Shown here one piece after another: positions 1 to 43,979 of a DNA stretch of 64,000 nucleotides (positions are counted from its first letter, which is position 1; each line of letters begins with the position of its first letter). This DNA comes from an uncultured Bacteroidales bacterium. Its GTDB lineage: Bacteria; Bacteroidota; Bacteroidia; Bacteroidales; Bacteroidaceae. The stretch spans positions 62,001-126,000 of the forward strand of contig CACXKA010000001.1 of the NCBI GenBank assembly GCA_902768125.1. The letters are read 5' to 3'. The notes beneath the pieces are model-generated. The model had not been told where the DNA came from. It worked only from the letters and a program-made list of their open reading frames with translations, and did no database searches. The position numbers and the translations under genes were made by a program.

Positions 1-722
1 TGCAGCAGAAGTCGGCTGAGAGACGGCGGACGGGGCTGTTTGTGGTGGAAGGAAGACGTGAGGTGGAGCATTGCGTGGCAGCGGGGATGGAAGTGAAAGA
101 GCTGTTTGTGTGTGAGGAGATGGAAGCGTGGAATGGTGGTGCGGTGGCTACGAACATGACGGTGGTGACGAAGGATGTGTATGAGAAGATGGCGTACAGA
201 GGAGGAACGGAAGGTGTTGTGGCTGTGGTGAGAGGAAGAGAGCGTTGGTTGGAAGAACTGGAGTTGGGTGAGAATCCGCTGATTGTGGTGGTGGAGCGTG
301 TGGAGAAGCCTGGAAACCTGGGTGCGATTCTGCGGAGTGCGGATGCGGCTGGAGCTGATGCGGTGATTGTATGTGATGCATTGACCGACTTATACAACCC
401 CAACCTGATTCGCAGTTCGATTGGAGCGGTGTTCACGGTGCCTTGTGTGGTGTGTGAGAGTGAGGAGTGCATCCGCTTCCTGAAGGAGCATGACATACAG
501 ATTCTGACGGCGCAGTTGCAGGATTCCCATTTGTATTATGACACGGACATGAAACGTGGGACAGCGATTGTGATGGGAACGGAATCGACGGGACTGACAG
601 AGGTGTGGAGGAAGGCGGCTGATGCGCACATTAGGATTCCGATGCTGGGACGACTGGACTCGCTAAATGTGAGTGTGAGTGCGGCAGTGTTGCTGTTTGA
701 GGCGGTGAGACAGAGGAATTGA
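1..722 (+). CDS. TrmH/SpoU-family RNA 2'-O-methyltransferase (5' end outside window)
   Basis: The reading frame is open from the first bases (first full codon at 3) and reads QQKSAERRRTGLFVVEGRRE, so the start lies upstream of the window. The GLFVVEG...EV stretch is the usual N-terminal substrate-binding part of SpoU proteins. The SPOUT motifs follow: ERVEKPGNLGAILRSADAAG, then VMGTESTGL, then IPMLGRLDSLNVSVSAAVLL. These form the knotted SAM-binding site and the dimer interface. The family 2'-O-methylates ribose in rRNA or tRNA; the exact target cannot be read from sequence. An array of tandem heptamers starts at its stop codon. Confidence 0.92.
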   Translation, partial: QQKSAERRRTGLFVVEGRREVEHCVAAGMEVKELFVCEEMEAWNGGAVATNMTVVTKDVYEKMAYRGGTEGVVAVVRGRERWLEELELGENPLIVVVERVEKPGNLGAILRSADAAGADAVIVCDALTDLYNPNLIRSSIGAVFTVPCVVCESEECIRFLKEHDIQILTAQLQDSHLYYDTDMKRGTAIVMGTESTGLTEVWRKAADAHIRIPMLGRLDSLNVSVSAAVLLFEAVRQRN

Positions 723-748
723 CAGTTGACAATTGACAGTTGACAGTT
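721..748. repeat. Tandem heptamer array, 4 x GACAGTT
   Basis: Four head-to-tail heptamers (GACAGTT, GACAATT, GACAGTT, GACAGTT) begin within the stop codon of the methyltransferase gene. The reverse complement is a rotation of TCAACTG, the unit of the array at 15785. This is one of a family of period-7/8 arrays in the window. Confidence 0.85.
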
Positions 749-783
749 AGGGAAAAGAAATAACAATCTTAATACTAAGTGAT

Positions 784-3207
784 ATGAAAAAGTTTATCTG
801 GCTATGGGTGACGATGATGGTGGTGGGGACGATGTGTGCTCAGGAAGAGTATCACATCAGGAACTTTGGAAAGGACGATGAATTAAAGACGCGTGGCACC
901 ATACGTCTTACACAGATCAACGGATTTATGTGGATTGGCACGTCGGAGGGTTTCTTTGCCTTTGACGGTAATCACATGCACAAATACACTATTCCTGATG
1001 AGGACGGACTTGGCGGATGGTTCGGTTGCGTGACCTCGCTGGCAGCTGCTCCCGATAGTTCTTTGTGGGTAGGTTCGAGACGAGGCATCTATCATTTTTA
1101 CATGGATGAGGAGCGTCTGGAAAAGTTCACGGCAAAGGATCTTCCTGACAGTCCAGATGTGGCGCAACTGTTGTTTGACAAGGAAGGACACCTGTGGAGC
1201 ATCATGAACGGAAAGGTGTACAAAATTGACTTGAAGACGAAGAAGGTGGAATGTGTGGGCGAAGGCTTGGCATCGCCCAGATGCATGACACTGACGAAGA
1301 AGGGAACGATGTGGTTGGGAGACAATGAAGGCATCCTGTACCGCTACGATTCCCATACCCACCGTTTGCGTTCGTACAATGTGAAGCCCGAGAACGTGGA
1401 GTCGTTCACGGAAATTGTGAGTATCACGGAGATGAGAAACGGACAATTGGCATTGGTCAGTGTCAACGATGGTGTCGCCCTGTTCTCTCCTGAGAAATAC
1501 ACCTCGAAGATGCTGCTGACGCATGATGACGAGGGTGCCCGCATGGTGTCACACACCTCCGTCACACCTGATGGCGACAACCTCTGGATTGGAACTGAAC
1601 GAGGTGTGATCATCTACCGAATGCGAGATGGGCATGTGAAGGGCATCCGTCAATCGCGCCACTCTGTGAATTCGCTGTCGGACAACTCTGTTCACTCGCT
1701 ATATGTGGATCATGAGAATGGTGTGTGGGCAGGCACCTACTTTGGCGGAACGGACCGCATCAGCTTGTCACCACACAATTTCACCGTCCATATGCCAGAG
1801 GATGAAGATGTGGACGTGGTGCGTGAGATTCTCGGAGACCACTTCGAACATCTCTGGGTAGGCACAGAAGATGGCGGTCTTTACCTGTTCAACAGGGATG
1901 ATGGCTCCCTGCGTGAAGCCAATCTGGATTGGGGTGGGAACCCTCGTCCGTTCAATGTGCAGGGAATGGCGCTGATTGATGACGACCTGTGGGTATCAAG
2001 CATCACGAATGGCATCTATGTGATAGACACGAGGACCATGAGTCTGAAACACCGATACGAGAAGACGAACAACACCAAACAGGGGCAGATGATTGGCGCA
2101 AAAAGCTTGTGCTACCAGAACGGTACCCTCTTTGCCGGCACAGGACGAGGCGTTTTCATCTTCGACAAGGAGAAAGGAGAGTTCAATCTTTTACCCGAAA
2201 CAAGTGGTGTGTATGCACAACGCCTCTATGGCGACCGTCACGGGAATGTGTGGGTGGCATCGTTTGACAAGGGTCTGTGGAAGATTCAGCAGGAGAAGGA
2301 CGGAAAATGGAAGGCAAATAAGAGCAAATTCGACTACAACTGTGTCTTTAGTGTGTTTGAAGATTCACGAGGACTTTACTGGGTGGGTACCGACCTGCTT
2401 GGTCTGATGACCTACGACGACAGGACGGGCCAGACAGAGCGGATGACGATGTCGGAGCAACTCATGCAAGAAACGGTGACAAACATTATAGAGGACACGC
2501 ATCACCGTCTGTGGATCAACACATTTAACGGACTCTACGCCTACAACATCGGCAAGAAGGTCATCAACCACGTGACGATAGCAAACGGATTGCCTACACC
2601 TTATCTCAACTATGCATCAGGCTATGTGGATGAAGACGGCGTCGTGTATATTGGCACATACAAGGGAATGATTTCCTTCAATCCTGCCTCATTCATCATG
2701 TCAAGAGACCGCTTGAAGCCATACTTCTTGAATCTCTATGTGAACGGACAACATATCCTGCCGAACGACGAGACGGGCATCCTGAAGAATACATTATTCA
2801 TGACGAAGGAAATCACGTTGGCTCGTGACCAGAACACCTTCACCATCTACTATGCCGTTCCTTCTTACCGAAGTGGTGAAATCGTGTGGTACCGCTATCG
2901 TCTGAATCCAGATGAGCCTTGGGTGGTGACAGACAACGCACAACCCATCCAGTTGTCCAACCTCTCGGCAGGTACTTTCCGAATCACCTTACAGGCAAGC
3001 TTCAACCCTGAACGTTGGGAGGGTGAAGCCGCTGTGCTTGTCGTCACCGTGAAACCACCTGTATGGCTGAGTCCGTATGCCTTTATCAGCTACGCATTGG
3101 TCATCATCTTGCTGGTGATTGGCATCATGTCTCTCATCAAGAAGAAAGTCCTCATCAAAACACCCACAACTAACACCCCCGAAGTAGAGCAAAAGAGAGA
3201 AGAATGA
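784..3207 (+). CDS. Orphan HTCS-type periplasmic sensor without kinase domain
   Basis: The 807-residue protein has a signal peptide (residues 1-19, ending MCAQ). Repeated propeller blades of the two-component-regulator type follow, with motifs such as LWVGSRRGIYHF, LWVGTEDGGLYLF and YWVGTDLLGLMTYD. Next is a Y_Y_Y-like domain (about 665-760) and one membrane helix (PYAFISYALVIILLVIGIMS). It ends about 25 residues after the membrane helix (KKKVLIKTPTTN...). In normal hybrid two-component systems this point is followed by HisKA, HATPase, REC and AraC domains; all are absent. It probably senses an oligosaccharide in the periplasm. The stop overlaps the next start by 4 nt (ATGA), so the two genes are translationally coupled. 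The missing output half resembles the protein encoded at 7927-9297. Confidence 0.85.
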   Translation: MKKFIWLWVTMMVVGTMCAQEEYHIRNFGKDDELKTRGTIRLTQINGFMWIGTSEGFFAFDGNHMHKYTIPDEDGLGGWFGCVTSLAAAPDSSLWVGSRRGIYHFYMDEERLEKFTAKDLPDSPDVAQLLFDKEGHLWSIMNGKVYKIDLKTKKVECVGEGLASPRCMTLTKKGTMWLGDNEGILYRYDSHTHRLRSYNVKPENVESFTEIVSITEMRNGQLALVSVNDGVALFSPEKYTSKMLLTHDDEGARMVSHTSVTPDGDNLWIGTERGVIIYRMRDGHVKGIRQSRHSVNSLSDNSVHSLYVDHENGVWAGTYFGGTDRISLSPHNFTVHMPEDEDVDVVREILGDHFEHLWVGTEDGGLYLFNRDDGSLREANLDWGGNPRPFNVQGMALIDDDLWVSSITNGIYVIDTRTMSLKHRYEKTNNTKQGQMIGAKSLCYQNGTLFAGTGRGVFIFDKEKGEFNLLPETSGVYAQRLYGDRHGNVWVASFDKGLWKIQQEKDGKWKANKSKFDYNCVFSVFEDSRGLYWVGTDLLGLMTYDDRTGQTERMTMSEQLMQETVTNIIEDTHHRLWINTFNGLYAYNIGKKVINHVTIANGLPTPYLNYASGYVDEDGVVYIGTYKGMISFNPASFIMSRDRLKPYFLNLYVNGQHILPNDETGILKNTLFMTKEITLARDQNTFTIYYAVPSYRSGEIVWYRYRLNPDEPWVVTDNAQPIQLSNLSAGTFRITLQASFNPERWEGEAAVLVVTVKPPVWLSPYAFISYALVIILLVIGIMSLIKKKVLIKTPTTNTPEVEQKREE

Positions 3208-4748
3208 TTAAAAAGATAATGATGATGACAGTGTTGCTGACGGCAACGCTGAACATGGGGGCGCAAGAAGATGATTTCGAGATGCGTGGACGCATTGAGA
3301 ATGTGACTGAGCATGCTGAGTTACCTTCCGATGGAAAGGTACGAAGAATCGGTTCCACCGCCACAGCACCGCTGACCTGCATGGGTTCACCTAAAGTGCC
3401 TGTGATTCTGGTGCAGTTTGACGACAAACCATTTACTGTTGGTGAGAATGACGAAACCATCAATCAAGTATATCAGGATTTCTTCAACGCTGGAGAGGGC
3501 ATCTCTCCCGGCACTTCCACTTGTTCTGTGAAGGAATATTTCCGTACGCAGTCAGGTTCGCAATTCATTCCCGAATATGACATCATCGGTCCTGTGACTC
3601 TCTCCAGAAGTTACACCTATTATGGTGAAGACAGCGGAAGTTCGAAGGACATCCACATCAACGACTTCTTCAAGGAGGCTTGTCGGTTAGCAACACAAAA
3701 AGAGGTGGATTGGCAGAAATATGACAACGACGAAAATGGAGTGGTGGATTTTGTTTTCTTCATCTACGCAGGACATGGTCAGAATCAGAAAGGGACGGAA
3801 TCAACCATTATCTGGCCAAAGGAAAGTGCTTCGACTTTCGTGGTGGAAAACGATGAAGGCACAATCCGTTTTGGTGCCTATGGATGCACCAATGAAATGT
3901 ATAAGGGGAGCCAAGATGGCATTGGAGCATGTGTGCATGAGATGTGTCACGGATTGGGACTTCCTGATGTCTACGACTACAACTACAAGTCGTATGGGAT
4001 GGACTACTGGGACCTGATGGACGCAGGATGCTATAAGATACTCGGTCGTATGCCCATAGGACTCTCTGCCTACGAACTGGATTTCCTCGGATGGAGAAAA
4101 CTGGTGGAACTGGATCCTGAAACAGCTTACAGCCTGACGCTCGATCCGCTGGAGAAGGAGGGTTTGGGATATAAGGTGGTGAACAAAGCAAACCCCGATG
4201 AGTACTTCATCTTGGAAAACCGGCAAGACATTGGGCAAGACCAGTATATTGGCTATGCCCTCAAGACTATGTGTGACACTTATGGAGCTAACCACGGGCT
4301 GATGATTAGCCACGTGAACTACAAGCAATCGGTGTGGAACAACAATACGGTGAACACACAAAGTGCGGATAATCAGCATATGACGATTGTGCCTGCCGAC
4401 GGGGAACTCATCCCTTCCCAAAACGAAAACAGCTCAGCATGGGCAAAGTCACAACATGGTGACCTCTATCCAGGCGAAAACAACGTGACGGAAATGACTT
4501 CATACGCTGTATTCACGGGGGAGACACTTGGGCAGACCATTAACAACATTGTGGAGCACGAGGATGGCACCATCACCGTAGACATCAACGGAGGAGCTAA
4601 AATTGAGCCAGAGCCGGAACCTGAACCCGAGCCAGAACCCGAGCCAGAGCCAGAACCCGAACCCGAACCAGAGCCTGAGCCTGAACCTGAGCCTGAACCT
4701 GAGCCAATAGTTCCTCTCACAGAACCTGATATTCCAGAGATTTCCTAA
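3204..4748 (+). CDS. Secreted M6-family metalloprotease with C-terminal Glu-Pro repeat
   Basis: The 514-residue protein starts with a signal peptide ending NMGAQ. The zinc motif is HEMCHGLGLPD: His245, Glu246, His249 and Asp255 fit the HExxHxxGxxD pattern of immune-inhibitor-A (M6) proteases. Supporting family sequences are DFVFFIYAGHGQ and the following DYWDLMDAG. Residues 468-501 are 17 Glu-Pro dipeptides, followed by a short tail IVPLTEPDIPEIS. The start codon overlaps the upstream sensor gene by 4 nt. It likely acts outside the cell or on the surface. No YDLQGR-type tail is present; the EP stretch may act as a wall- or membrane-spanning spacer (inference). Confidence 0.9.
   Translation: MIKKIMMMTVLLTATLNMGAQEDDFEMRGRIENVTEHAELPSDGKVRRIGSTATAPLTCMGSPKVPVILVQFDDKPFTVGENDETINQVYQDFFNAGEGISPGTSTCSVKEYFRTQSGSQFIPEYDIIGPVTLSRSYTYYGEDSGSSKDIHINDFFKEACRLATQKEVDWQKYDNDENGVVDFVFFIYAGHGQNQKGTESTIIWPKESASTFVVENDEGTIRFGAYGCTNEMYKGSQDGIGACVHEMCHGLGLPDVYDYNYKSYGMDYWDLMDAGCYKILGRMPIGLSAYELDFLGWRKLVELDPETAYSLTLDPLEKEGLGYKVVNKANPDEYFILENRQDIGQDQYIGYALKTMCDTYGANHGLMISHVNYKQSVWNNNTVNTQSADNQHMTIVPADGELIPSQNENSSAWAKSQHGDLYPGENNVTEMTSYAVFTGETLGQTINNIVEHEDGTITVDINGGAKIEPEPEPEPEPEPEPEPEPEPEPEPEPEPEPEPEPIVPLTEPDIPEIS
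4605..4706 (+). repeat. In-frame hexanucleotide repeat coding 17 Glu-Pro dipeptides
   Basis: There are seventeen GAR-CCN units. Both Glu codons and all four Pro codons are used in irregular order. The DNA is therefore much less regular than the peptide, which argues for selection on the peptide rather than very recent slippage. Confidence 0.95.
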
Positions 4749-4768
4749 AAAGAAATAGCATAAAAGGG

Positions 4769-4812
4769 GCAGACCCAATGAAGTGCCGTTATGGCAACTT
4801 CGTTGGGTCTGC
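4769..4812. terminator. Bidirectional stem-loop between convergent genes
   Basis: The left arm (4769-4787, GCAGACCCAATGAAGTGCC) pairs with 4793-4812 (GGCAACTTCGTTGGGTCTGC), with one bulge and one wobble. It covers the stop codon of the minus-strand GH67 gene and follows the M6 protease stop by 20 nt, so it probably ends both transcripts. Confidence 0.75.
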
Positions 4813-6615
4813 TGCTGTATAGTTGTCCATACGCAGATGGTAGTTCATCACCTGCTCCAACGTGAAGTGGAAAGCAGGACTGTCTGGTGGTAACGGACGG
4901 TGAGAGAACGTCTGGAAATAAAGGAGACAGGCATCTCGCCACCATTGCGCATCCTTTGCCTGACGCTGGAAACGCCACAACTGTTCTTCATACTGCTCAG
5001 CAGGAACGTAAGGTTTCATTGCCTCCCAAGTCTTCACGAACTCGTTTGCCTGACGCACGCCCCTATCATAGGTGTAGCAGAGATGATCCCAAAAAGACAA
5101 TCCGTTGCTCATCGTCTGATCCCAAGGTACATGATGGAACCACAGAAGCAAGTTCTCAGGACAGGTTTCCATATTATTATATAATGTACGCAAAGGCTCA
5201 GGATACTGACTCACATTGTTGGAACCCACATTGCCAGCCAGACAAGGCTCCTCATGGTCAGAACGGTTGAATCCAATACCAATGGTATCAACACGATGGT
5301 AGAAACGAGGCAACCAGTCTTCACGAGAGCCACGAGGAGCATACCAAGGTTCTGGACCATAATGGTGTCCACCTGCGAAGATGTGGTGCAATCCCAGTGG
5401 CATCATATAATCCACCACTGCCTCACGGCTTCTCATAAGAAGCTGAGTCATCGGACGAATAAAGTCGTCATTCTCCGTTTTATAGTAGTCACGAAGGAAA
5501 TCCGAAGCAATCGTCTTGGACGAAACAGTCACGTCATTTGCCAACCGACCAAAGGCATACCAGTTCGCCATTGCGAGATCGTTGGCTGTCCAGTTAGGGC
5601 TGTCACCGATGTTGGCAACACCAGCGATACCCACAAAATTGGGATAGCGGGAAAGGACGGGATTCTTCGAAGCATCAGGCTTGTCCATGATGCTCAAGGT
5701 GTTAAAGAATTCACGCCACATAGGAGCCAAGAAACAAGTGTGGATGCTCTCACCCGTATATTCCTGAGTAATCTGGAACTCCACCATCATCTTGGTCTTT
5801 TTCAGACCGAAGAAAAGAGGTGAAACAGGTTCACGAGGTTGGAAATCCACAGGACCATTCTTAATCTGGATAATCACATTGTCGGCAAATTGTCCATCGA
5901 AGTGGATGAACTCTTCGTATGCCTGATTGGCACGGTCTCCCTCATAAGCACGCTGAGCTGCACTCTTCTGAGCATCACCAGGTCCCTTTGCCGAATACAC
6001 GAAAGCGCGCCACATCACGATACCCTTATAAGGCTTCAACGCTTCTGCCAACATATTGGCACCGTCCACATGCGTGCGTCCATAATCCATCGGACCCGGT
6101 TCTCCCTCACTATTGGCTTTCACCAAGAAACCACCAAAGTCGGGAATGAGACGATAAATCTCCTTCACCTTCTTTTGCCACCACTGGGGCACACGAGGAT
6201 CCAGCGGGTCAGCTGTGTCAAGGTCACCCAACGCCTTGGGAGAGGCGAAATTGACAGAGAGGTACACTTTGACGCCATAGGGACGTAACACGTCAGCAAT
6301 CTTGGCGGTCTTTTTCAGCATATCCGTAGAGAGCGCAAGTGGTTTGGCGTTCACGTTGTTGAGCACTGTTCCATTGATACCATACTCCTTGTTGATACGA
6401 CCATACTCCTCATAACGGGCTTTCAGCGCCTTGGGCATCGCACCTTTGTCGGCAGGAATCTCCTCCCACTTCCAGATGGAGCGACCAGCAAAGCCACGTT
6501 CAACAGTACCATCGGGGTTGTCCCAATGATTGAGTAATCGTAATTCAAAGTCCTGTGCAAACACCACGTTGCACAACAGGAACAGGAAACTGATCAAAAG
6601 TGTTTTCTTTGTCAT
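4789..6615 (-). CDS. GH67 alpha-glucuronidase lacking the N-terminal domain
   Basis: GH67 enzymes release (4-O-methyl)glucuronic acid from the non-reducing end of xylo-oligosaccharides. The start at 6615 was chosen because it opens a clean signal peptide (MTKKTLLISFLFLLCNVVFA); a longer frame would run into the dehydrogenase gene. Hallmarks are RLLNHWDNPDGTVERGFAGR, KANSEGEPGP (Glu170, expected acid), NGPVDFQPREP (Asp257) and ITQEYTG (Glu285). The last two are 28 residues apart, as in characterised enzymes. At 608 residues it lacks roughly 120 residues: the catalytic part begins directly after the signal peptide, without the usual GH67 N-terminal domain. It lies 16 nt downstream of the dehydrogenase, in an apparent operon. 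Confidence 0.92.
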   Translation of the reverse strand: MTKKTLLISFLFLLCNVVFAQDFELRLLNHWDNPDGTVERGFAGRSIWKWEEIPADKGAMPKALKARYEEYGRINKEYGINGTVLNNVNAKPLALSTDMLKKTAKIADVLRPYGVKVYLSVNFASPKALGDLDTADPLDPRVPQWWQKKVKEIYRLIPDFGGFLVKANSEGEPGPMDYGRTHVDGANMLAEALKPYKGIVMWRAFVYSAKGPGDAQKSAAQRAYEGDRANQAYEEFIHFDGQFADNVIIQIKNGPVDFQPREPVSPLFFGLKKTKMMVEFQITQEYTGESIHTCFLAPMWREFFNTLSIMDKPDASKNPVLSRYPNFVGIAGVANIGDSPNWTANDLAMANWYAFGRLANDVTVSSKTIASDFLRDYYKTENDDFIRPMTQLLMRSREAVVDYMMPLGLHHIFAGGHHYGPEPWYAPRGSREDWLPRFYHRVDTIGIGFNRSDHEEPCLAGNVGSNNVSQYPEPLRTLYNNMETCPENLLLWFHHVPWDQTMSNGLSFWDHLCYTYDRGVRQANEFVKTWEAMKPYVPAEQYEEQLWRFQRQAKDAQWWRDACLLYFQTFSHRPLPPDSPAFHFTLEQVMNYHLRMDNYTAADPTKLP

Positions 6616-6631
6616 AAGTGTTGGTGAGCTT

Positions 6632-14672: not shown

Positions 14673-14680
14673 CAAAGATA
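14673..14680 (-). promoter_or_regulatory. -7 box for secreted patatin
   Basis: The minus strand reads TATCTTTG followed by CA, 18 bases before the ATG at 14654. Confidence 0.75.
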
Positions 14681-14687
14681 CAAAAAA

Positions 14688-14715
14688 CTCCTAACTCCTA
14701 ACGCCTAACTCCTAA
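14688..14715. repeat. Tandem heptamer array, 4 x CTCCTAA, between divergent promoters
   Basis: The units are CTCCTAA, CTCCTAA, CGCCTAA and CTCCTAA. The array fills the space between two divergent -7 boxes (14673-14680 and 14724-14731), where both -33 regions would have to lie. Confidence 0.88.
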
Positions 14716-14723
14716 CTTTTCAC

Positions 14724-14731
14724 TATCTTTG
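14724..14731 (+). promoter_or_regulatory. -7 box for cytosolic patatin
   Basis: TATCTTTG followed by CA lies 32 bases before the ATG at 14764. Confidence 0.75.
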
Positions 14732-15612: not shown

Positions 15613-15784
15613 CACAACTTTCGGAAGTGACGAAGTAATCGAAGTTAAAGGAGTTAACGACGATACCTAGTCAATGAAAATTAGGAATTAGGAAAGATGC
15701 GGTTGAGCGAGTGCAGAGGTCAAGCTAGTTTGAACTATGCCGAGTGTGAGCATCTTCGGCGAAGCCAATGAGGTATTGAATCTC

Positions 15785-15826
15785 TAAACCCTAAACTCTC
15801 AACCCTCAACTGTCAATTGTCAACTC
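15785..15826. repeat. Degenerate heptamer array, six units
   Basis: The units are TAAACCC, TAAACTC, TCAACCC, TCAACTG, TCAATTG and TCAACTC. The period is exactly 7 while the unit drifts, and the AA at positions 3-4 is constant. Confidence 0.85.
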
Positions 15827-17154: not shown

Positions 17155-17182
17155 TTTTCACTTTTCACTCTTCACTTTTCAC
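17155..17182. repeat. Tandem heptamer array, 4 x TTTTCAC
   Basis: The units are TTTTCAC, TTTTCAC, TCTTCAC and TTTTCAC. The array lies in the -33 region of the candidate promoter at 17140. A looser TTAACTAC-type array follows at about 17205-17240. Confidence 0.85.
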
Positions 17183-17251
17183 TTCAACAGTTGACTTGGT
17201 ATCGGCTTAACTACTTAACTACTGACTACTTAACCACTTCAGAAACTTGAG

Positions 17252-17731: not shown

Positions 17732-17739
17732 CAAAGGTA
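17732..17739 (-). promoter_or_regulatory. -7 box for CinA-like gene
   Basis: The minus strand reads TACCTTTG, 27 bases before the ATG at 17704. Confidence 0.7.
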
Positions 17740-17748
17740 CGACTTTAA

Positions 17749-17776
17749 GTGAAAAGTGAAAAGTGAAAAGTGAAAA
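17749..17776. repeat. Tandem heptamer array, 4 x GTGAAAA
   Basis: Four perfect GTGAAAA units start 9 nt upstream of the CinA-like -7 box. The unit is the reverse complement of that at 17155. Confidence 0.9.
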
Positions 17777-35349: not shown

Positions 35350-35352
35350 CGC

Positions 35353-36380: not shown

Positions 36381-36388
36381 CAAAGTTA
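36381..36388 (-). promoter_or_regulatory. -7 box for cyclodeaminase/LicD operon
   Basis: The minus strand reads TAACTTTG, 62 bases before the ATG. Confidence 0.65.
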
Positions 36389-36401
36389 CGGAAAATTGTA
36401 G

Positions 36402-36433
36402 AATTGAAGAATTGAAAAATTGAAAAATTGAGA
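36402..36433. repeat. Tandem octamer array, 4 x AATTGAAA-like
   Basis: The units are AATTGAAG, AATTGAAA, AATTGAAA and AATTGAGA. The array starts 13 nt upstream of the minus-strand -7 box. Confidence 0.88.
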
Positions 36434-36463
36434 TTAGGCGTAAAAAAACAGAAGATATAATAA

Positions 36464-36495
36464 CTTCAATCCTTCAATCTTTCAATTCTTCCATT
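36464..36495. repeat. Tandem octamer array, 4 x CTTCAATC-like
   Basis: The units are CTTCAATC, CTTCAATC, TTTCAATT and CTTCCATT, the reverse-complement type of the array at 36402. It ends 9 nt before the metG -7 box, giving a mirror-symmetric divergent promoter region. Confidence 0.85.
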
Positions 36496-36504
36496 CATTT
36501 TTCG

Positions 36505-36512
36505 TACCTTTG
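36505..36512 (+). promoter_or_regulatory. -7 box for metG
   Basis: TACCTTTG followed by CA lies 27 bases before the ATG at 36540. It excludes an in-frame start at 36510, which lies within the box. Confidence 0.8.
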
Positions 36513-36539: not shown

Positions 36540-38606
36540 ATGGAACAGAAAAATTTTAAGAGAACGACGGTGACAGCAGCACTGCCTTACGCCAATGGTC
36601 CTGTGCATATCGGACACTTGGCAGGAGTCTATGTGCCTGCAGACATTTATACAAGATACCTGCGATTGAAAGGACGTGAGGTGATGTTTGTGTGTGGTAG
36701 CGACGAACACGGCGTGCCCGTGACCATCCGTGCCAAGAAGGAGGGATGCACGGTGCAGGACGTGGTGGACAGGTATCATGGCATCATCAAGAAGTCCTTC
36801 GCTGACTTCGGCATCAGTTTCGACATTTATAGCCGAACCACCAGCAAGACGCACCACCAGTTTGCTGCCGACTTCTTCAAGAAGCTCTACGACGAGGGCA
36901 AGTTTGTGGAAATCACCTCTGAGCAGTTCTACGATGAGGAGACCAAGCAGTTCCTCACCGACCGCAACATCAAGGGTGAGTGCCCACGTTGCCATGCTGA
37001 AGGAGCCTATGGCGACCAGTGCGAGAAGTGTGGTGCGACCCTCTCTCCCGAGGAACTCATCAACCCTGTGAATGCCATCAACGGCAACCCATTGGTGAAG
37101 AAAGCTACCAAGCATTGGTACTTGCCGCTCGACCAATATCAGGGATGGTTGGAAGACTGGATTCTGAAAGGACACCCAGAGTGGCGTAGCAATGTATATG
37201 GACAATGCAAGAGCTGGCTCGATGGCGGTTTGAAACCTCGTGCCGTGACTCGCGACCTCGATTGGGGTATTCCAGTACCCGTGGAAGGTGCTGAGGGAAA
37301 GGTGCTCTATGTGTGGTTTGACGCTCCTATCGGTTACATTTCCAACACCAAGGAACTCTGTGAGAAGGAACCTGAAAAGTGGGGCACTTGGCAGAAATGG
37401 TGGCAGGATGACGAGACCCGTCTGGTACATTTCATCGGCAAGGACAACATCGTCTTCCACTGCATCGTGTTCCCTTCCATGTTGAAGGCACACGGCGACT
37501 ACATTCTGCCCGACAACGTGCCCAGCAACGAGTTCCTCAACCTCGAAGGCAACAAGATTTCCACCTCCAAGAATTATGCTGTTTGGCTGAACGAATATCT
37601 GGAGGAACTGCCTAACCGTCAGGACGAACTCCGCTATGTACTGACCGCCAATGCGCCTGAGACGAAGGACAACGACTTCACTTGGGCTGATTTCCAAGCA
37701 CGTTGCAACAACGAGTTGGTGGCGGTGTATGGCAATTTCGTGAACCGCGCTTTGCAACTCACCCAGAAATATTATGACGGCATCGTGCCTGCTTGTGGCG
37801 AACTCACCGACACCGACAAGGCAACGTTGGCAGAGTTTGCTTCCGTGAAGGACAACGTGGAGAAGCTCATTGAGGGCTTCAAGTTCCGCGAGGCACAGAA
37901 GGAGGCGATGAACTTGGCACGTATCGGCAACAAGTACATTGCTGACGAAGAACCCTGGAAGGTCATCAAGACCGATCCAGAACGCGTCAAGACCATCATC
38001 TATATCTCCTTGCAGCTCACCGCCAATCTGGCGATTGCGTTCGAGCCATTCCTCCCCTTCTCTTCCGCCAAACTGCGTGAGATGATTTGCATGGACAAAC
38101 TCAATTGGGAAGACCTCGGCAAGACAGACCTTTTGCCTGCTGGCAAGCAGTTGGGCAAGCCCAGCCTGTTGTTCTCGAAGATTGAGGATGAAACCATCAA
38201 GTTCCAGACAGACAAGCTCGAAGCCACCATCAAGGCAAACGAAGCTGCCAATGCAGAGGTGGCTCCCGTGAAAGAGACCATCGCCTTTGACGACTTCACC
38301 AAACTCGACATTCGTGTGGCAACCGTGCTGGAATGCGAGCGAGTGCCCAAGATGAAGAAGCTTCTCAAGTTCAAGCTGGATGACGGCACCCCCAAGGGAC
38401 GCACCATCGTGAGCGGTATTGCTCAGTGGTACGAGCCAGAGCAGTTGGTGGGCAAGCAAGTGCTCTTCATTGCCAACTTGGCTCCTCGTGAGTTCAAGAA
38501 CGGACTTGTCAGCGAAGGCATGATTCTGTCAGCAGAGAACTACGACGGCACCATCAGCGTGACCACTGTGGAGAAGGCTGTGAAGGGCGGTAGCCAGGTT
38601 TGCTAA
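36540..38606 (+). CDS. metG: Methionyl-tRNA synthetase
   Basis: The enzyme charges tRNA-Met with methionine. The 688 residues show the HIGH motif ([10 protein letters not shown]), a zinc knuckle (CPRC...CEKC), the KMSKS equivalent NKISTSKN, an anticodon-binding helical domain and a C-terminal tRNA-binding domain (about 580-688, [21 protein letters not shown]). The last is the dimerising EMAP-II-like extension found in long MetRS forms. Confidence 0.97.
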
Positions 38607-38637
38607 CCAGCCCATGCGCTGGGCGTTTCCTTGACGA

Positions 38638-39435
38638 ATGAGCGTGAAGTACCAGATCAACGAACAGTATGCAGCAATGCAAGAGGTGCAGGACTTTGTG
38701 ACGCACCTCCCCGCATTGTTCGAGGCAGAGGGGAAACAGCTCTTTGCCAACGGACGAAATGTGCTGAAGGTGTTTGAGGTCGTCAAGGGGCATCCCGTAT
38801 TGGGGAAGGTGGTGGTGAAGCGTTTTCATGCCCGCAACATCTTCCAGACCATTGCCTACAGCACCTTCACGACTTCGAAGGCACAACGGGCATTCCACAA
38901 TGGATTGAAGTTGTTGGAGTGCGGACTCAGCACCCCCGAACCCATTGCCTATGTGGAAGAGCGAAACGGCGGAATGCTACGCTACTGCTACTATCTCACC
39001 GCCTTCACAGAGGCGAAGAGTGTACGGACAGCCTTGGATGTGGATTTCAACAAACCCTTGGCAAAGTCCTTCGCCCAGTTCATCGCCCAATTGCATCAGC
39101 ACGGCTTGGTACACCACGACCTGAACTTCGACAACGTCCTCTACCAAGAACTCCCAAACCTCAAACCTCAAACCTCAAACCTCATCATTTCCGTCATCGA
39201 CATCAACAGGCTCACCATCCATCCTGCCAATCAACTGACATTGGCAGATTGCAAAGATGATTTTGTGCGCTGGACAGACAGAAAGGACTTGCTCAAATAT
39301 GTGGTGGAGGAATACGCCAAAGCCAGAGGGCTCGACTTGCCCAGCACGCTGGATGAGGTGATGCGGGTGAAAGCCATTCACGACCGCAATTGGCATCGAA
39401 GAAAAAACCTGACCCATAAACTCAAACATCTATGA
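38638..39435 (+). CDS. WaaP/Kdo-kinase-like lipopolysaccharide kinase
   Basis: The 265-residue protein has a minimal kinase fold: VVVKRFHAR with the nucleotide-binding Lys, the catalytic loop HHDLNFDNVLY (Asp161), and a DFG-equivalent VIDINRL. It resembles Kdo/heptose kinases that phosphorylate lipid A-core sugars at the inner-membrane face. The loop between the catalytic Asn and VIDIN is enlarged by a heptamer-array insertion (39155-39182) read as PNLKPQTSNL. The stop overlaps the next gene by 4 nt, consistent with a core-polysaccharide operon. Confidence 0.82.
   Translation: MSVKYQINEQYAAMQEVQDFVTHLPALFEAEGKQLFANGRNVLKVFEVVKGHPVLGKVVVKRFHARNIFQTIAYSTFTTSKAQRAFHNGLKLLECGLSTPEPIAYVEERNGGMLRYCYYLTAFTEAKSVRTALDVDFNKPLAKSFAQFIAQLHQHGLVHHDLNFDNVLYQELPNLKPQTSNLIISVIDINRLTIHPANQLTLADCKDDFVRWTDRKDLLKYVVEEYAKARGLDLPSTLDEVMRVKAIHDRNWHRRKNLTHKLKHL
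39155..39182 (+). repeat. Heptamer array (4 x CAAACCT) inside the kinase gene
   Basis: Four perfect CAAACCT units lie in frame in the coding region. Their reverse complement is a rotation of the GGTTTGA unit at 42828. The site is a loop between two catalytic motifs. Confidence 0.92.
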
Positions 39436-40433
39436 ATTGTTATATCAGCATGGACTCGCCCAACACGGCGAAAAGACACGTGGACGAACTGATGCGCCGC
39501 TGGGGCTTCACCGACCTTGCCGTCAAGACGGGTAAGGGCAAAGTGGCGACGTTCTTCCGCAAGGTGTTCAGCATGGTCAACCTGCTGTTCAAACTGAAGA
39601 AGGGCGACGTGCTGGTCATACAATATCCATTCAAGAAATTCTATGTGGCGCAATGCCAGATTGCCCATCTGAAAGGGGCTAAGACGGTGACGCTGATTCA
39701 CGACCTCGGCACTTTCCGACGCCGCAAACTGACCGCTGAGCAGGAAGTGAAAAGACTTTCTCACACCGATGTCATCATCGTTCACAATCAAAGCATGAAC
39801 AACTGGCTCACGGAGCATGGATGCAAGGTGCCATTGGTGAACCTCGATATCTTCGATTACCTGTCTTCCGAACAGCCTTCTTCTGAACCTCATGTGAGGG
39901 GCGAGAAACCCACTTTCACCTTTGCTGGCGGCATCAGCCAACGGAAAACTGGCTTCCTCTACCAGCTTGACGAGGTGTTGGATGGATGCCACTTCGACTT
40001 GTATGGTTCAGGACTTGTTCCTGGCACAGAAACGAATTGGAAGAACACGACCTATCACGGACAGATTGATTCAGACCAGTTCATCGGAACGGTGAAAGCG
40101 GATTGGGGACTCGTCTGGGATGGTGACACCATCGATGGATGTTCAGGCACTTGGGGCAGCTACCTTCGCATCAACAACCCCCACAAGGCATCTTTCTGCT
40201 TGCGGGCAGGACTTCCCGTCATTGTGTGGAAAGAATCAGCGATGGCACCTTTCATCACCAGCAACCATCTGGGCATAGCGGTGGATTCCCTGCGTGAATT
40301 GCCTGAAAAATTGCAGGGCATCACCCCTGAGGAGTATGCCCTGTACAAACGTGCCGCGATGACCATCAAGGATGAGTTGAACGACGGACACTATTTCAAG
40401 ACTGCCTTCGAAAAGGCTGTCCAATTACTCTAA
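39432..40433 (+). CDS. Glycosyltransferase, galactofuranosyltransferase-like
   Basis: The 333-residue cytosolic protein starts MNCYISMDSPNTAKRHVDELM. It contains GDVLVIQYPFKKFYVAQ, VTLIHDLGTFRR, FAGGISQRKTGFLYQL and a C-terminal GLVWDGDTIDGCSGTWGSYLRINNPHKAS. This late motif, with the NNPHK nucleotide-sugar site, is typical of the WefC/Gtf-type beta-1,6-galactofuranosyltransferases. It is coupled by a 4-nt overlap to the WaaP-like kinase, so both probably act on one surface glycan. Its end overlaps the convergent glycosyltransferase by 9 nt. Confidence 0.83.
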   Translation: MNCYISMDSPNTAKRHVDELMRRWGFTDLAVKTGKGKVATFFRKVFSMVNLLFKLKKGDVLVIQYPFKKFYVAQCQIAHLKGAKTVTLIHDLGTFRRRKLTAEQEVKRLSHTDVIIVHNQSMNNWLTEHGCKVPLVNLDIFDYLSSEQPSSEPHVRGEKPTFTFAGGISQRKTGFLYQLDEVLDGCHFDLYGSGLVPGTETNWKNTTYHGQIDSDQFIGTVKADWGLVWDGDTIDGCSGTWGSYLRINNPHKASFCLRAGLPVIVWKESAMAPFITSNHLGIAVDSLRELPEKLQGITPEEYALYKRAAMTIKDELNDGHYFKTAFEKAVQLL

Positions 40434-41453
40434 CACATATTTGACGCCCTTGTAGCCGTCCCAACGACAGCGCAACTGCTTCATCCACGCTTTCCAACAA
40501 CGCTTCATCTGAGTGCCGTTGCTGACTTGTCGTGTCTCATAGATCGGTGGCAACGCCTTCAGTTCAGCCTGTCGCTGCGCGATGTCCTTCAGGATGGCCT
40601 GCACATCGTTGCTGATGCGCTGCACCTCTGGACGTCCTTCCCATTCCTTGAAGAGATACTCCCCATACTGCTCCAGAATGCCACAACGGTCGAGCATCCA
40701 TCGCTGCTGGGCAAAGGCAAAGTGGGCAATCAGGCAATCGCCGTTCACTCGGTTCATCTTTCCCAACTGGGTGGGCTTCAGACACGAGAAGAACTCCTCG
40801 TCGTCTCCCTGCACATTGCCGTCGAATGCTTTCAGGTCCTTGCCGAACCACAAGATGGAGTTGATGGAGAAACGTCCCATTGCCCAAGGGTAAGAGCCGC
40901 AGTAGAGTTCCTGATACTTGCCCGTAGTCAGATACTTGTCGAGGAACCACTGGTGCAACTGAGCCGCAAAGCTGCCACGTTTCCACATGATGCGATGATT
41001 GCATTGGGCATTGTAGTAGCGGTTCAGCTTGATTTTTCCCTGCACTTGCAGAATGTAGGTGCTCATGGCATTGTTGATGACCAGCGGCGACACGATGAAG
41101 CATTCAGGATGGTCGATGCGGAAATCCACCATCTTCTGGAAATAGTCGGGTTCCAGCCACACCACATCGTCGTCCATCTTGATGTAGATGGTGTCCTCCT
41201 CCATGCAGAACTTATAGAACGCATTGATGGTGGCGATGCCATCCACCCGCTTGTCGGGTTGCCACACCAAGTTGATTTTGGGGTATTTCTGTGCCAGGAG
41301 TTTGAAGAACTCGATGTCGCAGTTATCGATGGTGTTCACCCACACGTCATAGCGGTCGATGATGTCAGCCGCCAGCACCTGCGGAAAGAGATACTGCATG
41401 TAGCGGCGTCTTCCAGCAGCCGTGTTGCAAACGATTTTATAGCCTCTGTACAT
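40425..41453 (-). CDS. Putative GT-A glycosyltransferase
   Basis: The 342-residue protein begins MYRGYKIVCNTAAGRRRYMQYLFP and contains EEDTIYIKMDDDVVWLEPDYF, a DxD-type metal site of a GT-A fold. It carries also PWAMGRFSINSILWFGKDLKAF and DDEEFFSC. The family is not identified precisely. It is convergent with the galactofuranosyltransferase-like gene, and the two stop regions overlap, so the cluster may serve one surface polysaccharide. Confidence 0.75.
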   Translation of the reverse strand: MYRGYKIVCNTAAGRRRYMQYLFPQVLAADIIDRYDVWVNTIDNCDIEFFKLLAQKYPKINLVWQPDKRVDGIATINAFYKFCMEEDTIYIKMDDDVVWLEPDYFQKMVDFRIDHPECFIVSPLVINNAMSTYILQVQGKIKLNRYYNAQCNHRIMWKRGSFAAQLHQWFLDKYLTTGKYQELYCGSYPWAMGRFSINSILWFGKDLKAFDGNVQGDDEEFFSCLKPTQLGKMNRVNGDCLIAHFAFAQQRWMLDRCGILEQYGEYLFKEWEGRPEVQRISNDVQAILKDIAQRQAELKALPPIYETRQVSNGTQMKRCWKAWMKQLRCRWDGYKGVKYVLE

Positions 41454-41475
41454 GGTTATTTCGTTGATTTGTTGG

Positions 41476-41483
41476 CAAAATTA
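41476..41483 (-). promoter_or_regulatory. -7 box for GT-A gene
   Basis: The minus strand reads TAATTTTG followed by CC, 22 bases before the ATG. Confidence 0.65.
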
Positions 41484-41522
41484 CCACTTTATTTTGAAAG
41501 GACAAAGAAAAAGTGGACAAAA

Positions 41523-42809
41523 CTATCCGAAGAAGAAGTAAGCCACGGCGATGGCAGCCAGAATGCCGAAGAGATCGGCAAGGAGTCCGCAAGTGACCGC
41601 ATGGCGAGTGTGACGAATGCCAACAGAACCGAAATACACGGCGAGGATGTAGAAAGTGGTGTCGGTGCTTCCCTGGAAGATGCAGGCAAGGCGACCCGCA
41701 AAGGAGTCAGGTCCATAGGTGGTCATCGTGTCCACCATCATGCCTCGCGCACCCGAACCCGAGAGGGGTTTCATCAGGGCGGTGGGCAGAGCAGCCACAA
41801 AGTCCGAGTTGCCTCCACAGAGTTCCACCAGCCAGTTGATGCCACGAATGAGGATATCCATACCGCCGCTGGCACGGAACACGCCGATGGCAATGAGAAT
41901 CGCCACCAGATAAGGGATGACACGCACAGCGGTGGTGAAGCCGTCCTTGGCACCCTCGATGAAGGTTTCATAGACATTGACCTTCTTCACCATTCCTGCG
42001 ATGATGAAGGCGAGCATGATGCCAAACAAGATGATGTTGGCAACCAAGGTGCTGACCATATCCATCGTCTCCTTGTCCAACTGAGAGAAGCCCCAAATCA
42101 TACCAGCCACCAAGAGGCACATACCTCCCAGCGTGCCCAGCAGCACGGGCTGGAAAAGGTTGATGCGCTGGTAGATGCTGGTGATGATGATGCCCGCCAA
42201 AGTCGCGGCAAAGGTAGCCAGAAGAATCGGCACGAAGACATCGGTGGGTTGTGCTGCCCCCATCTGGGCACGATACACCATGATACTGACAGGAATGATG
42301 GTGAGTCCTGAAGTGTTGAGCACCAAGAACATGATCATCGAGTTGGAAGCCGTCTCGTTGAGTTTCGCCACCTTCTCGGCAGACCATCCTTTCAGCACGC
42401 CCTGCCCTTCGTTCTTCGACTTGTTCAGTTCCTGCATGCTCTCCATCGCCTTCAGTCCCAGCGGCGTGGCGGCATTGTCAAGTCCCAGCATGTTGGCTGC
42501 GATATTCATGAAGATGTGTCCTGTGGCAGGATGTCCTTTCGGAATGTCGGGAAAGAGGCGGGTGAAGAGAGGGCTGAGCAGCTTGGAGAGCAAACTCACC
42601 ATACCACCCTTCTCACCGATTTTCATGATGCCCATCCACAGCGAGAGGACACCCGTCAATCCGATGGAAATCTCGAAGGCAGTCTTGGCATTCTCGAAGG
42701 TGGAGCCGACCATATCGGCAAACACGCCCGAATTGCCCAAGAAACACTGAATGATGGCGCACACGGCTGCCAACAGGAAAAATGCAATCCAAATATAATT
42801 GAGTACCAT
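41523..42809 (-). CDS. SpmA-SpmB fusion, nucleoside-recognition (Gate) domain protein
   Basis: The 428-residue membrane protein combines an SpmA-like N-terminal half (GLTGVLSLWMGIMKIGEKGG, NIAANMLGLDNAATPLGLKAM) with an SpmB-like C-terminal half (FIEGAKDGFTTAVRVIPYLVAILIAIG, KPLSGSGARGMM). In spore formers these are two proteins of spore dehydration. Non-sporulating Bacteroidota carry the fused form, with presumed transport of an unknown small molecule. It is separated from the downstream (42809 side) transporter gene by a repeat array. Confidence 0.88.
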   Translation of the reverse strand: MVLNYIWIAFFLLAAVCAIIQCFLGNSGVFADMVGSTFENAKTAFEISIGLTGVLSLWMGIMKIGEKGGMVSLLSKLLSPLFTRLFPDIPKGHPATGHIFMNIAANMLGLDNAATPLGLKAMESMQELNKSKNEGQGVLKGWSAEKVAKLNETASNSMIMFLVLNTSGLTIIPVSIMVYRAQMGAAQPTDVFVPILLATFAATLAGIIITSIYQRINLFQPVLLGTLGGMCLLVAGMIWGFSQLDKETMDMVSTLVANIILFGIMLAFIIAGMVKKVNVYETFIEGAKDGFTTAVRVIPYLVAILIAIGVFRASGGMDILIRGINWLVELCGGNSDFVAALPTALMKPLSGSGARGMMVDTMTTYGPDSFAGRLACIFQGSTDTTFYILAVYFGSVGIRHTRHAVTCGLLADLFGILAAIAVAYFFFG

Positions 42810-42811
42810 GA

Positions 42812-42858
42812 GGGGTTGAGGGGTTGAGGTTTGAGATTTGAGAATTGAGGTTTGAGAT
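42812..42858. repeat. Octamer-to-heptamer array (GGGGTTGA, GGTTTGA units)
   Basis: The units are GGGGTTGA, GGGGTTGA, GGTTTGA, GATTTGA, GAATTGA, GGTTTGA and a partial GATTTA. It fills the whole gap between two minus-strand transporter genes. The period changes from 8 to 7 within one array. Confidence 0.85.
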
Positions 42859-43845
42859 TTATTCTTTCACTTTTTGCTTGGCAAAGAGGTTGGCAAGAAT
42901 CGTGCCGCTGATGCTGTGCCAGGCGCAGGAAATCGCACAAGGCACCACAGCCATGGGGTTGGTCGCCACGAAGAAAGTCATCGCGAGGTTCGTGCCGAGA
43001 CCAGCATTCTGCATGCCCACCTCAATCGAGAGGGTGCGTTTCTTCGCCACAGAGAAGTGGCACATCCTGCCCACCGAATAGCCCAGCACATAGCCAATCG
43101 TGTTGTGGCAGAACACCATTCCGAAGGTGAGCAAGAAGAGCACCAGACCATTCTCCACCAACGGGTCGTGCACCGTCGTGATGACACCACCCACGATGCA
43201 AGCCAGCGACGCCACCGACACGCCTGGCATACAAGCCTGAATCTTCTGAAACACCTCCTTGTGTCCCAGCCACACATTCAGGAAGAAGCCGATGGCAATG
43301 GGGATGATCGTGACGATGAGGATTTGCTGGAACATTCCCCAGGCATCCACATCCACTCGTTCACCAGCCAGCCACAACACCAGCAACGGCGTCAGCACAG
43401 GAGCCAGCAACGTGGAGGCACAAGTCATGCCCACCGAATACGCCACATCACCCTTGCAGAGGAACGACATGATGTTGCTCGACACACCGCCCGGACAGCA
43501 ACCCACCAGAATGATGCCAATCGCCATCGCCGTGCTGTAGGGAGCAAAGGCAGGCACCTGACCGAACAGCCACGAGAGCGAGAACGCCACCAGCGGCATG
43601 ATGGTGAATTGGGCAGCCGCCCCAATGAGGATATCCAAAGGACGCTTTGCCAACAACTTGAAATCGTCAGGCGTCAGCGTCAATCCCATCGTCAGCATGA
43701 TAATGCCCAAAATAACCGTTTGTGTGTTGCCCTTCACCCATTCGAAGAGCACAGGAAAGAAAAACGTGACCACAGCCGTGAGAATCACAAACAAACTTGC
43801 CTTCCCACTCAGCGTATCACTAATAGCCTTAAAAATCTTATACAT
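42859..43845 (-). CDS. Sodium-dependent transporter of the bile acid:Na+ symporter (BASS) family
   Basis: The 328-residue membrane protein has about ten helices. Family motifs are GLTLTPDDFKLLAKRP, GCCPGGVSSNIMSFL (the helix-break substrate region) and EVGMQNAGLGTNLA. These symporters move organic anions such as pantoate or other keto acids with Na+. The substrate is unknown. Its promoter lies at 43871. Confidence 0.9.
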   Translation of the reverse strand: MYKIFKAISDTLSGKASLFVILTAVVTFFFPVLFEWVKGNTQTVILGIIMLTMGLTLTPDDFKLLAKRPLDILIGAAAQFTIMPLVAFSLSWLFGQVPAFAPYSTAMAIGIILVGCCPGGVSSNIMSFLCKGDVAYSVGMTCASTLLAPVLTPLLVLWLAGERVDVDAWGMFQQILIVTIIPIAIGFFLNVWLGHKEVFQKIQACMPGVSVASLACIVGGVITTVHDPLVENGLVLFLLTFGMVFCHNTIGYVLGYSVGRMCHFSVAKKRTLSIEVGMQNAGLGTNLAMTFFVATNPMAVVPCAISCAWHSISGTILANLFAKQKVKE

Positions 43846-43870
43846 TTTCCATCCACTTAGATTTCAAATG

Positions 43871-43878
43871 CAAAGGTA
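43871..43878 (-). promoter_or_regulatory. -7 box for BASS transporter
   Basis: The minus strand reads TACCTTTG followed by CA, 25 bases before the ATG. Confidence 0.75.
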
Positions 43879-43923
43879 CGGATAAGTGAGTGAAAAACCA
43901 AATTTATTTGAGTTTTTCCTAAT

Positions 43924-43979
43924 CTATAACCTATAACCGTTAACCTATAACCGTTAACCGTAATCTTGAACCTTTGAAC
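43924..43979. repeat. Degenerate heptamer array, eight units
   Basis: The units are CTATAAC, CTATAAC, CGTTAAC, CTATAAC, CGTTAAC, CGTAATC, TTGAACC and TTTGAAC. The period stays exactly 7 while the unit shifts through related words. Confidence 0.88.

Follow-up and report, generated by a model that had tools for sequence, protein, structure and literature searches.

Period-7 and period-8 tandem arrays and their placement at promoter-like -7 boxes in an uncultured Bacteroidales bacterium

Introduction

The stretch of DNA analysed here, referred to as the window, comprises 64,000 nucleotides (contig CACXKA010000001.1, positions 62,001 to 126,000) from the metagenome-assembled genome (MAG) of an uncultured Bacteroidales bacterium, which we call G000 (2.78 Mb in 41 contigs, 89.66% complete). 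At ten places it carries short tandem arrays with a period of 7 or 8 nucleotides, which lie in divergent, convergent and co-directional gaps between genes such as metG and a serB-like gene, and once inside a gene (Table 1). In this paper we describe these arrays and above all their placement next to sequences that match TAnnTTTG, the -7 box of promoters recognised by the Bacteroidota sigma factor sigma-ABfr (PMC7366714). The MetG protein of G000 is 90-96% identical to that of Bacteroidaceae or Bacteroidales MAGs (loci L009-L013), some of them from goat reticulum or sheep rumen, from which we infer a rumen origin of the genome.

A preliminary description of the window had listed arrays of 4-8 units at ten positions. 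Tandem Repeats Finder detects an array at all ten places, with periods of 7 or 8 and with 14 and 21 as multiples. The copy number at period 7-8 ranges from 2.6 to 6.4, with at least one row of 4.3-5.3 at eight of the ten places, so that the stated number of units is slightly generous. The rotations and reverse complements by which the units had been related to one another are correct when checked by hand. Not all positions are separate sites, as 36402 and 36464 are the two arms of one palindrome, and the array at 39155 belongs to a coding sequence instead of a gap.

Table 1. Arrays, palindrome parts and promoter-like boxes in the window
Feature	Position	Strand	Tandem Repeats Finder span	Remark
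Heptad array (plus strand TTGACAG), starting in the final bases of the open reading frame (ORF) ending at 722	719..748	-	719-748	35 nt before next start
-7 box TATCTTTG of divergent promoter, 5 nt from the 14686 array	14673..14680	-		
Single heptad array of AACTCCT type, flanked by two divergent -7 boxes	14686..14717	+	14686-14717	G023: equal length, one base changed
-7 box TATCTTTG, 6 nt from the 14686 array	14724..14731	+		
Heptad array in convergent gap, mixed CTAAACC, CTCAACC and TCAACTG units	15784..15823	+	15782-15826	G023: two more 7-bp units
TTTTCAC heptad array without box; inner boundary CTTAGATTTTTCAC	17155..17184	+	17155-17184	
-7 box TACCTTTG	17732..17739	-		
Heptad array of four minus-strand TTTTCAC units, 7 nt upstream of -7 box	17747..17776	-	17747-17776	
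-7 promoter-like box TAACTTTG, 5 nt from left arm	36381..36388	-		
Octad array (AATTGAAG type), left arm of palindrome, C-rich strand toward minus-strand promoter	36394..36431	-	36392-36431	G023 orthologue: one base different
Palindrome loop, common to two G000 paralogues (C1:226008, C1:256770)	36432..36463	.		
Octad array (CTTCAATC type), right arm of palindrome toward metG promoter	36464..36496	+	36464-36496	Identical in G023
-7 promoter-like box TACCTTTG of metG, 8 nt from right arm	36505..36512	+		
Heptad array (CAAACCT), in frame in a weakly Kdo-kinase-like gene	39155..39184	+	39155-39184	
Heptad array of CTCAAAC type, filling a co-directional gap between genes	42809..42860	-	42809-42860 (two overlapping rows)	Unit and copy number vary by species, or array absent
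Heptad/octad array (TAACCTA, TAACCGT, TTGAACCT) in divergent gap upstream of serB-like gene	43927..43989	+	43920-43961	

Results

The sample of G000 that we scanned amounts to 456 kb, or 16% of the assembly, and consists of the window and 20 further stretches. Arrays and their counts come from a custom lag scan with a minimum length of about 19 bp, genes were called with a custom script based on ORFs and codon usage, and -7 boxes were identified by sequence match to TAnnTTTG alone. Statements on RibF, metG, bass and terminators were judged by eye. In intergenic DNA the scan found 33 arrays at period 7 and 11 at period 8, followed by 5 at period 9, 3 at period 11 and 1 at period 12, with 4 and 2 at the longer periods of 14 and 15, and none at periods 3-6, 10 or 13. 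Dinucleotide-preserving shuffles (mean of 20) gave 0.1 arrays at period 7, none at period 8 and 0.05 at each of periods 5, 6, 9 and 13. Another 11 period-7 and 2 period-8 arrays lie in coding sequence, for which three shuffles gave no array at any period. A chance origin is ruled out by these shuffles, and the concern raised in the preliminary description, that shuffled intergenic sequence of equal composition might give similar arrays at similar rates, is not borne out.

A large class of arrays stands directly upstream of a -7 box. In G000, the distance from the array end to a downstream TAnnTTTG box is 5-8 nt for 17 of the 49 intergenic arrays, a number for which 2000 random placements in the same gaps gave an expectation of 1.2 and a maximum of 6. 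Seen from the genes, 23 of the 114 with a box at most 150 nt upstream carry an array that ends -1 to 10 nt from the box. Arrays are also unevenly spread over the gaps of at least 40 bp: divergent gaps hold one in 20 of 46 cases, more often than the remaining gaps (p = 0.003), co-directional gaps in 21 of 105 and convergent gaps in 6 of 27.

Not only the distance to the box but also the register is regular. When G000 and six congeners are pooled and repeated contexts are removed, AA[CT] cores are found at -10, -17, -24, -31 and -38 from the box. In the heptad arrays 86 of 117 AA[CT] positions fall in one phase, 3 modulo 7. At least three cores in the -10 register are present in 18 arrays, of which 14 (including at least one orthologous pair of G000 and its sister genome G023, at 14686) have exactly five cores; of the remainder, four cores are seen in three arrays and three cores in one, and no array exceeds five. 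In the window array at 14686..14717, for example, the five AAC cores run from -10 to -38 relative to the box on the plus strand. TTCA arrays contain exactly four cores in all eight cases. Leaving out G023 gives five cores in 12, four in 3 and three in 1 of 16 arrays and four cores in 7 of 7 TTCA arrays; G000 alone contributes seven arrays with five cores and two with four.

The same arrays have a preferred length. A length of 28-34 bp is found in 36 of 42 promoter-proximal period-7 arrays, but in 63 of the 152 period-7 arrays elsewhere, those in coding sequence among them (p = 2e-7). The difference is also seen when G023 is left out (30/35 against 42/95, p = 2e-5), in the other five congeners by themselves (17/19 against 23/53, p = 5e-4) and in G000 alone (13/16 against 19/42, p = 0.02). 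Because of the lower length limit of the lag scan, only the upper side of this distribution is free of threshold effects. The free spread of lengths that slippage alone would be expected to produce is not found in promoter-proximal arrays, and arrays elsewhere are more variable.

Orientation mostly follows the promoter as well. Of 59 arrays whose edge lies -1 to 10 nt from a box, 48 have their C-rich strand on the promoter strand and 9 on the opposite one, and 2 are neutral; a wider count, which includes three coding matches, gives 52 of 69. The 69 distinct array-box pairs still hold TATATTTG at 42797 and its relatives (L157 in G023, L227 in G043), whose edges at 11, 18 and 17 nt exclude them from the tighter count. 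We rejected TATATTTG as a promoter box, since it is coding sequence of the next gene and conserved in congeners.

Although the units vary, they are akin to one another. Each of the 22 period-7 units listed for G000 has, on one strand, a rotation that starts with AAC, AAT or CAC, and 8 of the 13 period-8 arrays rotate to an AAT start. The commonest period-7 units are AACCTCA (nine arrays) and CACTTTT (seven arrays). Where a triplet recurs five times at a constant step, AAC is the most frequent one at step 7 and AAT at step 8. A small set of units turns up repeatedly at unrelated sites within one genome, and other genomes hold partly different sets. Five successive copies of AACNNNN are present in 112 of 198 Bacteroidales genomes, G000 included. 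The reversed pattern, used as control, is often lower, still sizeable, and above the pattern in some genomes. Outside the genus the period of 7 is therefore firmer than the AAC anchor, and a preference for AAC there is suggestive only. An inner boundary AGATTTTTCAC is common to 12 of 19 TTCAC arrays and suggests shared ancestry or copying more than slippage at each place independently.

Many arrays occur as inverted pairs. Among 31 neighbouring pairs with 10-130 bp between them, the two arrays mirror each other with their C-rich strands pointing outward in 21 (these include at least two orthologous pairs of G000 and G023, namely window 36394/L157 and L123/L139, and a related pair in G036, L231) and inward in 2, while 7 pairs are direct and 1 is neutral. 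The resulting palindromes span 88-133 bp, with predicted single-strand folds of -34 to -67 kcal/mol (30-nt flanks; values without a shuffled baseline). Units differ between palindromes and agree between the two arms of one palindrome. After leaving out the five G023 pairs of the 21, arm units are 0.93 identical, compared with 0.62 when right arms are permuted within a genome, and none of 5000 permutations reached the observed value (n = 16).

The palindrome of the window, 36394-36496, has a minus-strand box on one side and the metG box on the other. Its alignment with L128:10746-10848 is 85% identical over 103 bp, and that with the start of L127 is 86% identical over 85 bp; both of these are in G000, in unrelated surroundings. 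A query with its loop found three full-length or near-full-length copies in G000, and every one of six congeners has one or two. Compared by 40 letter shuffles per pair, with loops taken from palindromes, the window and L128 loops reach z = 4.8 only, and the support for their kinship is the full-length alignment of the palindromes. More generally, loops group into dispersed families. One family is found with heptad AATTCCT arms in L222 (G030) and in L223 and L225 (G031), but with octad arms in L094 (G030) and L011; the innermost arm part of L094 still reads GGAATT...AATTCC despite its octads. At individual loci, then, both arms seem to have been exchanged around a loop that was kept. The palindromes L091, L106 and L113 combine repeat arms with a loop TTTGCTACCGCA...TGCGGTAGCAAA or a variant of it, and G035 has two copies of this type of loop, one with TTTTCAC and the other with TTTTCCC arms. 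At the metG promoter, the window and L011 (MetG 96% identical) carry different loop families. At the L279 locus arm copy number and loop are equal in five species, as judged by eye.

Single arrays may be related to these palindromes. The inner boundary CTTAGATTTTTCAC of the array at 17155..17184 matches palindrome arms elsewhere, so this array is perhaps a solo arm. For the array at 17747..17776, the inner boundary TGTAGATTTTTCAC recurs at L134:17041.

Comparison with G023 shows how the arrays change. The two genomes have a mean identity of 93.5% over 129 kb aligned at 88% or more, and in the part of G023 compared 21 of 77 array clusters of G000 could be mapped, 14 of equal length and 7 of different length. 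Clean gaps of one 7-bp unit are seen twice at 15784, once at 42824 (together with a 1-bp gap) and once at L122:7118 beside a 36-bp gap, and the reverse mapping shows an 8-bp gap in the octad array c29:21294. At the 39155 locus G023 is 21 bp longer, by one extra unit and about 14 bp of non-array sequence. The other length differences (34, 74 and 1+1 bp) are not clean units. Intergenic arrays have substitutions at 33 of 546 aligned bases (6.0%), other intergenic DNA at 816 of 9052 (9.0%, p = 0.016), which fits a moderate constraint on the letters of intergenic arrays, together with more indels, on a small base.

Across species, arrays are present or missing or differ in their unit at orthologous places, in line with the gain and loss that the preliminary description had expected. 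At metG the -7 box is present in the window, L009, L010, L011 and L013, and no array was seen by eye in L009, L010 and L013. Outside the genus, 80 metG loci (1.0 Mb) include 20 with period-7 arrays, but just 14 array-box pairs, and their edges are scattered.

Upstream of the bass gene, in the congener loci L102 and L108-L111, a terminator-like hairpin abuts the -7 box where other species hold an array (by eye). The upstream half of this promoter looks interchangeable between hairpin and array.

Arrays are also found in frame inside genes. Those for RibF, PrmC and an RmlC-like epimerase score above NCBIfam cut-offs, while a QueA-like gene (which starts at the edge of its stretch) and an RlmB-like gene score below. 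Among the best 30 RibF orthologues of 43 genomes with a match, we saw by eye 11 with a heptad-type insert, 13 with a short loop and 6 with another insert, and the best 30 PrmC proteins of 45 genomes with a match show a similar pattern. Non-heptad inserts occupy the RibF loop in L201, L202, L203, L205, L207 and L213, where relatives have heptad arrays. The C-rich strand is the coding strand in 13 of 17 coding arrays, presumably because many units of the G-rich strand hold stop codons. No parts of loops were seen by eye beside coding arrays. At L138:6027-6063 (TTTTCAC type) and L123:6932-6961 (TTTTAGT type) heptad arrays encode N-terminal hydrophobic stretches, which are probably signal peptides.

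Several features of the window lie outside this pattern. Near the array at 43927..43989 there is a TATCTTTA sequence, which is not a consensus box. Between 4605 and 4706 a hexamer/18-mer repeat (GAACCT, GAGCCAGAACCTGAACCC) is found near the 3' end of an M6-type metalloprotease gene. The region 52001-56000 has a G+C content of 37%, against about 50% in most of the window, contains 22- and 31-bp repeats within and just past it, and is possibly foreign DNA.

Discussion

On balance we lean towards an explanation in which slippage and template switching in hairpins write the arms, selection fixes length and register at promoters, and hairpins are occasionally copied. The arrays would then form one family of DNA modules, built either on a 7-nt grid, with AAC or AAT as anchor (CAC in the TTTTCAC type) and the rest of the unit free, or on an 8-nt grid, mostly with CAAT. 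Whole-unit replication slippage and template switching between hairpin arms would create the arrays and rewrite both arms to one unit. Selection would keep an array that abuts a sigma-ABfr-type -7 box at about 31 bp and in one register, because, as we propose, it forms the upstream half of the promoter at the position of the -33 element. Inverted array pairs would serve divergent genes, and whole hairpins might at times be copied into further divergent gaps. Free of a constraint on length, the same process would act in gaps within operons, in convergent gaps and in tolerant loops of proteins.

The steps of this proposal differ in their support. Whole-unit slippage is supported by the sister-genome comparison, and the shared copying or slippage mechanism suggested by the preliminary description is backed both by the whole-unit gaps and by the common unit in the arms of each palindrome. 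That description overlooked the fixed register and length at the -7 box, the pairing of arrays as palindromes, the dispersed families of loops and the insertions in coding sequence. The identity of the arms and their exchange on both sides suggest template switching, and arm homogenisation of inverted repeats by this process has been described (PMC8604942). There, as here, arms are rewritten to match, whereas in our case entire multi-unit arms, even with a change of period from 7 to 8, appear to be exchanged together. Selection on promoter-proximal arrays is suggested by their fixed register and length, and the array most likely acts as the upstream half of the promoter. For the dispersal route of the hairpins we infer copying from the paralogues in unrelated surroundings. 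Since orthologous genes lack arrays in other species, the array would be a modifier rather than a requirement. Selection for helical periodicity, the other possibility raised earlier, is without direct support and we reject helical phasing as such, because 7 bp is two thirds of a 10.5-bp turn and out of phase with it, which puts the cores on three faces of the helix.

A number of observations weigh against this explanation. As many as 31 of the 49 intergenic arrays fall outside the window of -1 to 10 nt from a box, and a looser test of proximity within 60 nt is weak (23/49 against a mean of 16.7 and a maximum of 24 in 500 placements). The octad register is less clear, with 25 of 49 positions in one phase, and in co-directional gaps the arrays have no strand preference (9 same, 10 opposite). 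Orthologous promoters are often free of arrays, at metG in the three loci mentioned and by eye in most of 30 loci upstream of bass, so that the module is dispensable. The lower substitution rate of arrays depends on just 546 aligned bases, indel openings number 22 per kb in arrays against 11.6, as neutral slippage predicts, and coding arrays have no deficit of substitutions (22/230 against 7.5% in coding sequence). Clean gain or loss of a hairpin, or an empty site, was found at none of the 21 mapped clusters of 77; duplications were not separately searched.

As a rival explanation, a mutational bias towards slippage at 7-8 nt might simply fill unconstrained DNA, be it gaps, protein loops or the weakly constrained region upstream of a -7 box, without any function. 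We regard this as a serious possibility, though not the probable one. In most genomes heptamers are reportedly more abundant than any other long simple repeats, and slippage related to the polymerase footprint has been proposed as the reason (Mrazek 2007 as cited in PMC4679880 and PMC4692102). Arrays that fill entire gaps flush to the genes, for example at L133:15458 and L121:4121, those inside RibF and PrmC loops, the raised number of indels and the common array-free promoters all agree with neutral filling. Alone, however, it does not predict five cores in one register with none longer, arm pairs with a common unit, or the recurrent boundary AGATTTTTCAC in 12 of 19 TTCAC arrays.

More speculatively, the arrays could be a dispersed bidirectional-promoter module in which the unit, and even the period, can be replaced in both arms at once without a change in loop, length or register to the -7 box. 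AAC at every two thirds of a turn would then be read by a DNA-binding factor, either filament-like or built of several subunits, at about a fifth of the promoters of G000 (23 of 114 sampled genes with a box). We put this forward as a tentative idea only.

Hairpins of the REPIN/RAYT type (repetitive extragenic palindromes in pairs, with their associated tyrosine transposases) and those of miniature inverted-repeat transposable elements (MITEs) are dispersed palindromes of about 100 bp in extragenic DNA. The palindromes described here resemble them in being hairpins of about 100 nt made from an inverted pair (21 of 31 pairs) and in having dispersed copies, three for the window palindrome in G000; BrickBuilt MITEs are known from Porphyromonas (PMC5771137). 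The arrays might hence be arms or solo remnants of a non-autonomous element moved in trans by a transposase, which would suit palindromes of 88-133 bp, dispersed paralogues in unrelated surroundings, loop families, the recurrent inner boundary and a metG promoter that has a different loop family or no array in orthologues. Against this, the arms are tandem arrays and the copy number is low, with three in G000 for the one loop family counted. There is no clean hairpin gain or loss among the 21 mapped clusters and, by eye, no loop part beside coding arrays. The Y1 transposase family PF01797 (Y1_Tnp) has no match in G000; in the genus set of 45 genomes, 20 have a match at E<=0.001 and 14 above the cut-off. 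The absence is not certain given that G000 is 89.66% complete, and other transposase families were not searched. For want of a PF01797 match in G000 we reject mobilisation by RAYT. Transposase-driven mobility in general is possible but unsupported, and we consider it unlikely as the origin of the arrays.

The hairpins could also be selected as RNA structure, in terminators or leaders, and arrays in convergent and operon gaps, the strong predicted folds and the terminator-like hairpins that abut the -7 box in L102 and L108-L111 are compatible with this. However, a palindrome between divergent -7 boxes is placed upstream of the predicted start on either side and should not be transcribed from either promoter, and single arrays have no second arm for pairing. 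An RNA-level role is thus improbable. Phase variation, in which slippage of copy number alters promoter spacing or reading frame, agrees with whole-unit differences between close species at some arrays and with the frame shifts that 7-nt coding arrays could cause, but it is very improbable in view of the single length and register of promoter-proximal arrays, the equal length of 14 of the 21 clusters mapped between G000 and G023, the housekeeping gene metG among those served, and the equal arm copy number at L279 in five species.

Cyanobacterial short tandemly repeated repetitive (STRR) heptamers are a fair parallel to the arrays. With heptameric simple sequence repeats in general (PMC4679880, PMC4692102) the arrays share tandem 7-nt units above chance and whole-unit changes of length, but here the unit is free beyond a short anchor, many arrays form palindromic pairs, and length and register are fixed at promoters. 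TAACTGA direct repeats are known from marine Beggiatoaceae, some Cyanobacteria and five Bacteroidetes (MacGregor 2015, PMC4679880). In that system one unit is repeated, related heptamers rarely so, and most repeats lie within several nt of a start codon, whereas here many related units are present in one genome and a large class of arrays lies just upstream of a -7 box. TAACTGA itself is absent from the period-7 units printed for G000 (22 kinds, 48 arrays), among which there are many related units. GGGNATC-type repeats of Xanthomonas and Nostoc (PMC4692102) are likewise heptamers with four copies as the commonest number, lengths that vary among relatives, and inverted pairs. Their units form G-quadruplexes, while the units here have no GGG on the printed strand and few have three C. 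The passages of PMC4679880 and PMC4692102 that we consulted describe neither arrays in a fixed register to a -7 box nor palindromic pairs with shared, exchangeable units, although inverted pairs are noted in PMC4692102. In the literature searched, mostly openly accessible and with some narrow searches, we found no description of such arrays at Bacteroidales promoters.

With sigma-ABfr promoters the arrays have the -7 box TAnnTTTG in common, and they take the upstream region where a -33 element would be; a -33 TTTG has been deduced in Bacteroides fragilis and was not identified in Flavobacterium johnsoniae (PMC7366714). If the fixed register means function, there would be a class of Bacteroidales promoters with a tandem array as upstream half, in place of the -33 element. 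The heptad-encoded peptides in RibF and PrmC loops suggest that the same process adds protein sequence. With units that change and a period, length and register that stay constant, the arrays offer a natural experiment on slippage, template switching and selection in regulatory DNA.

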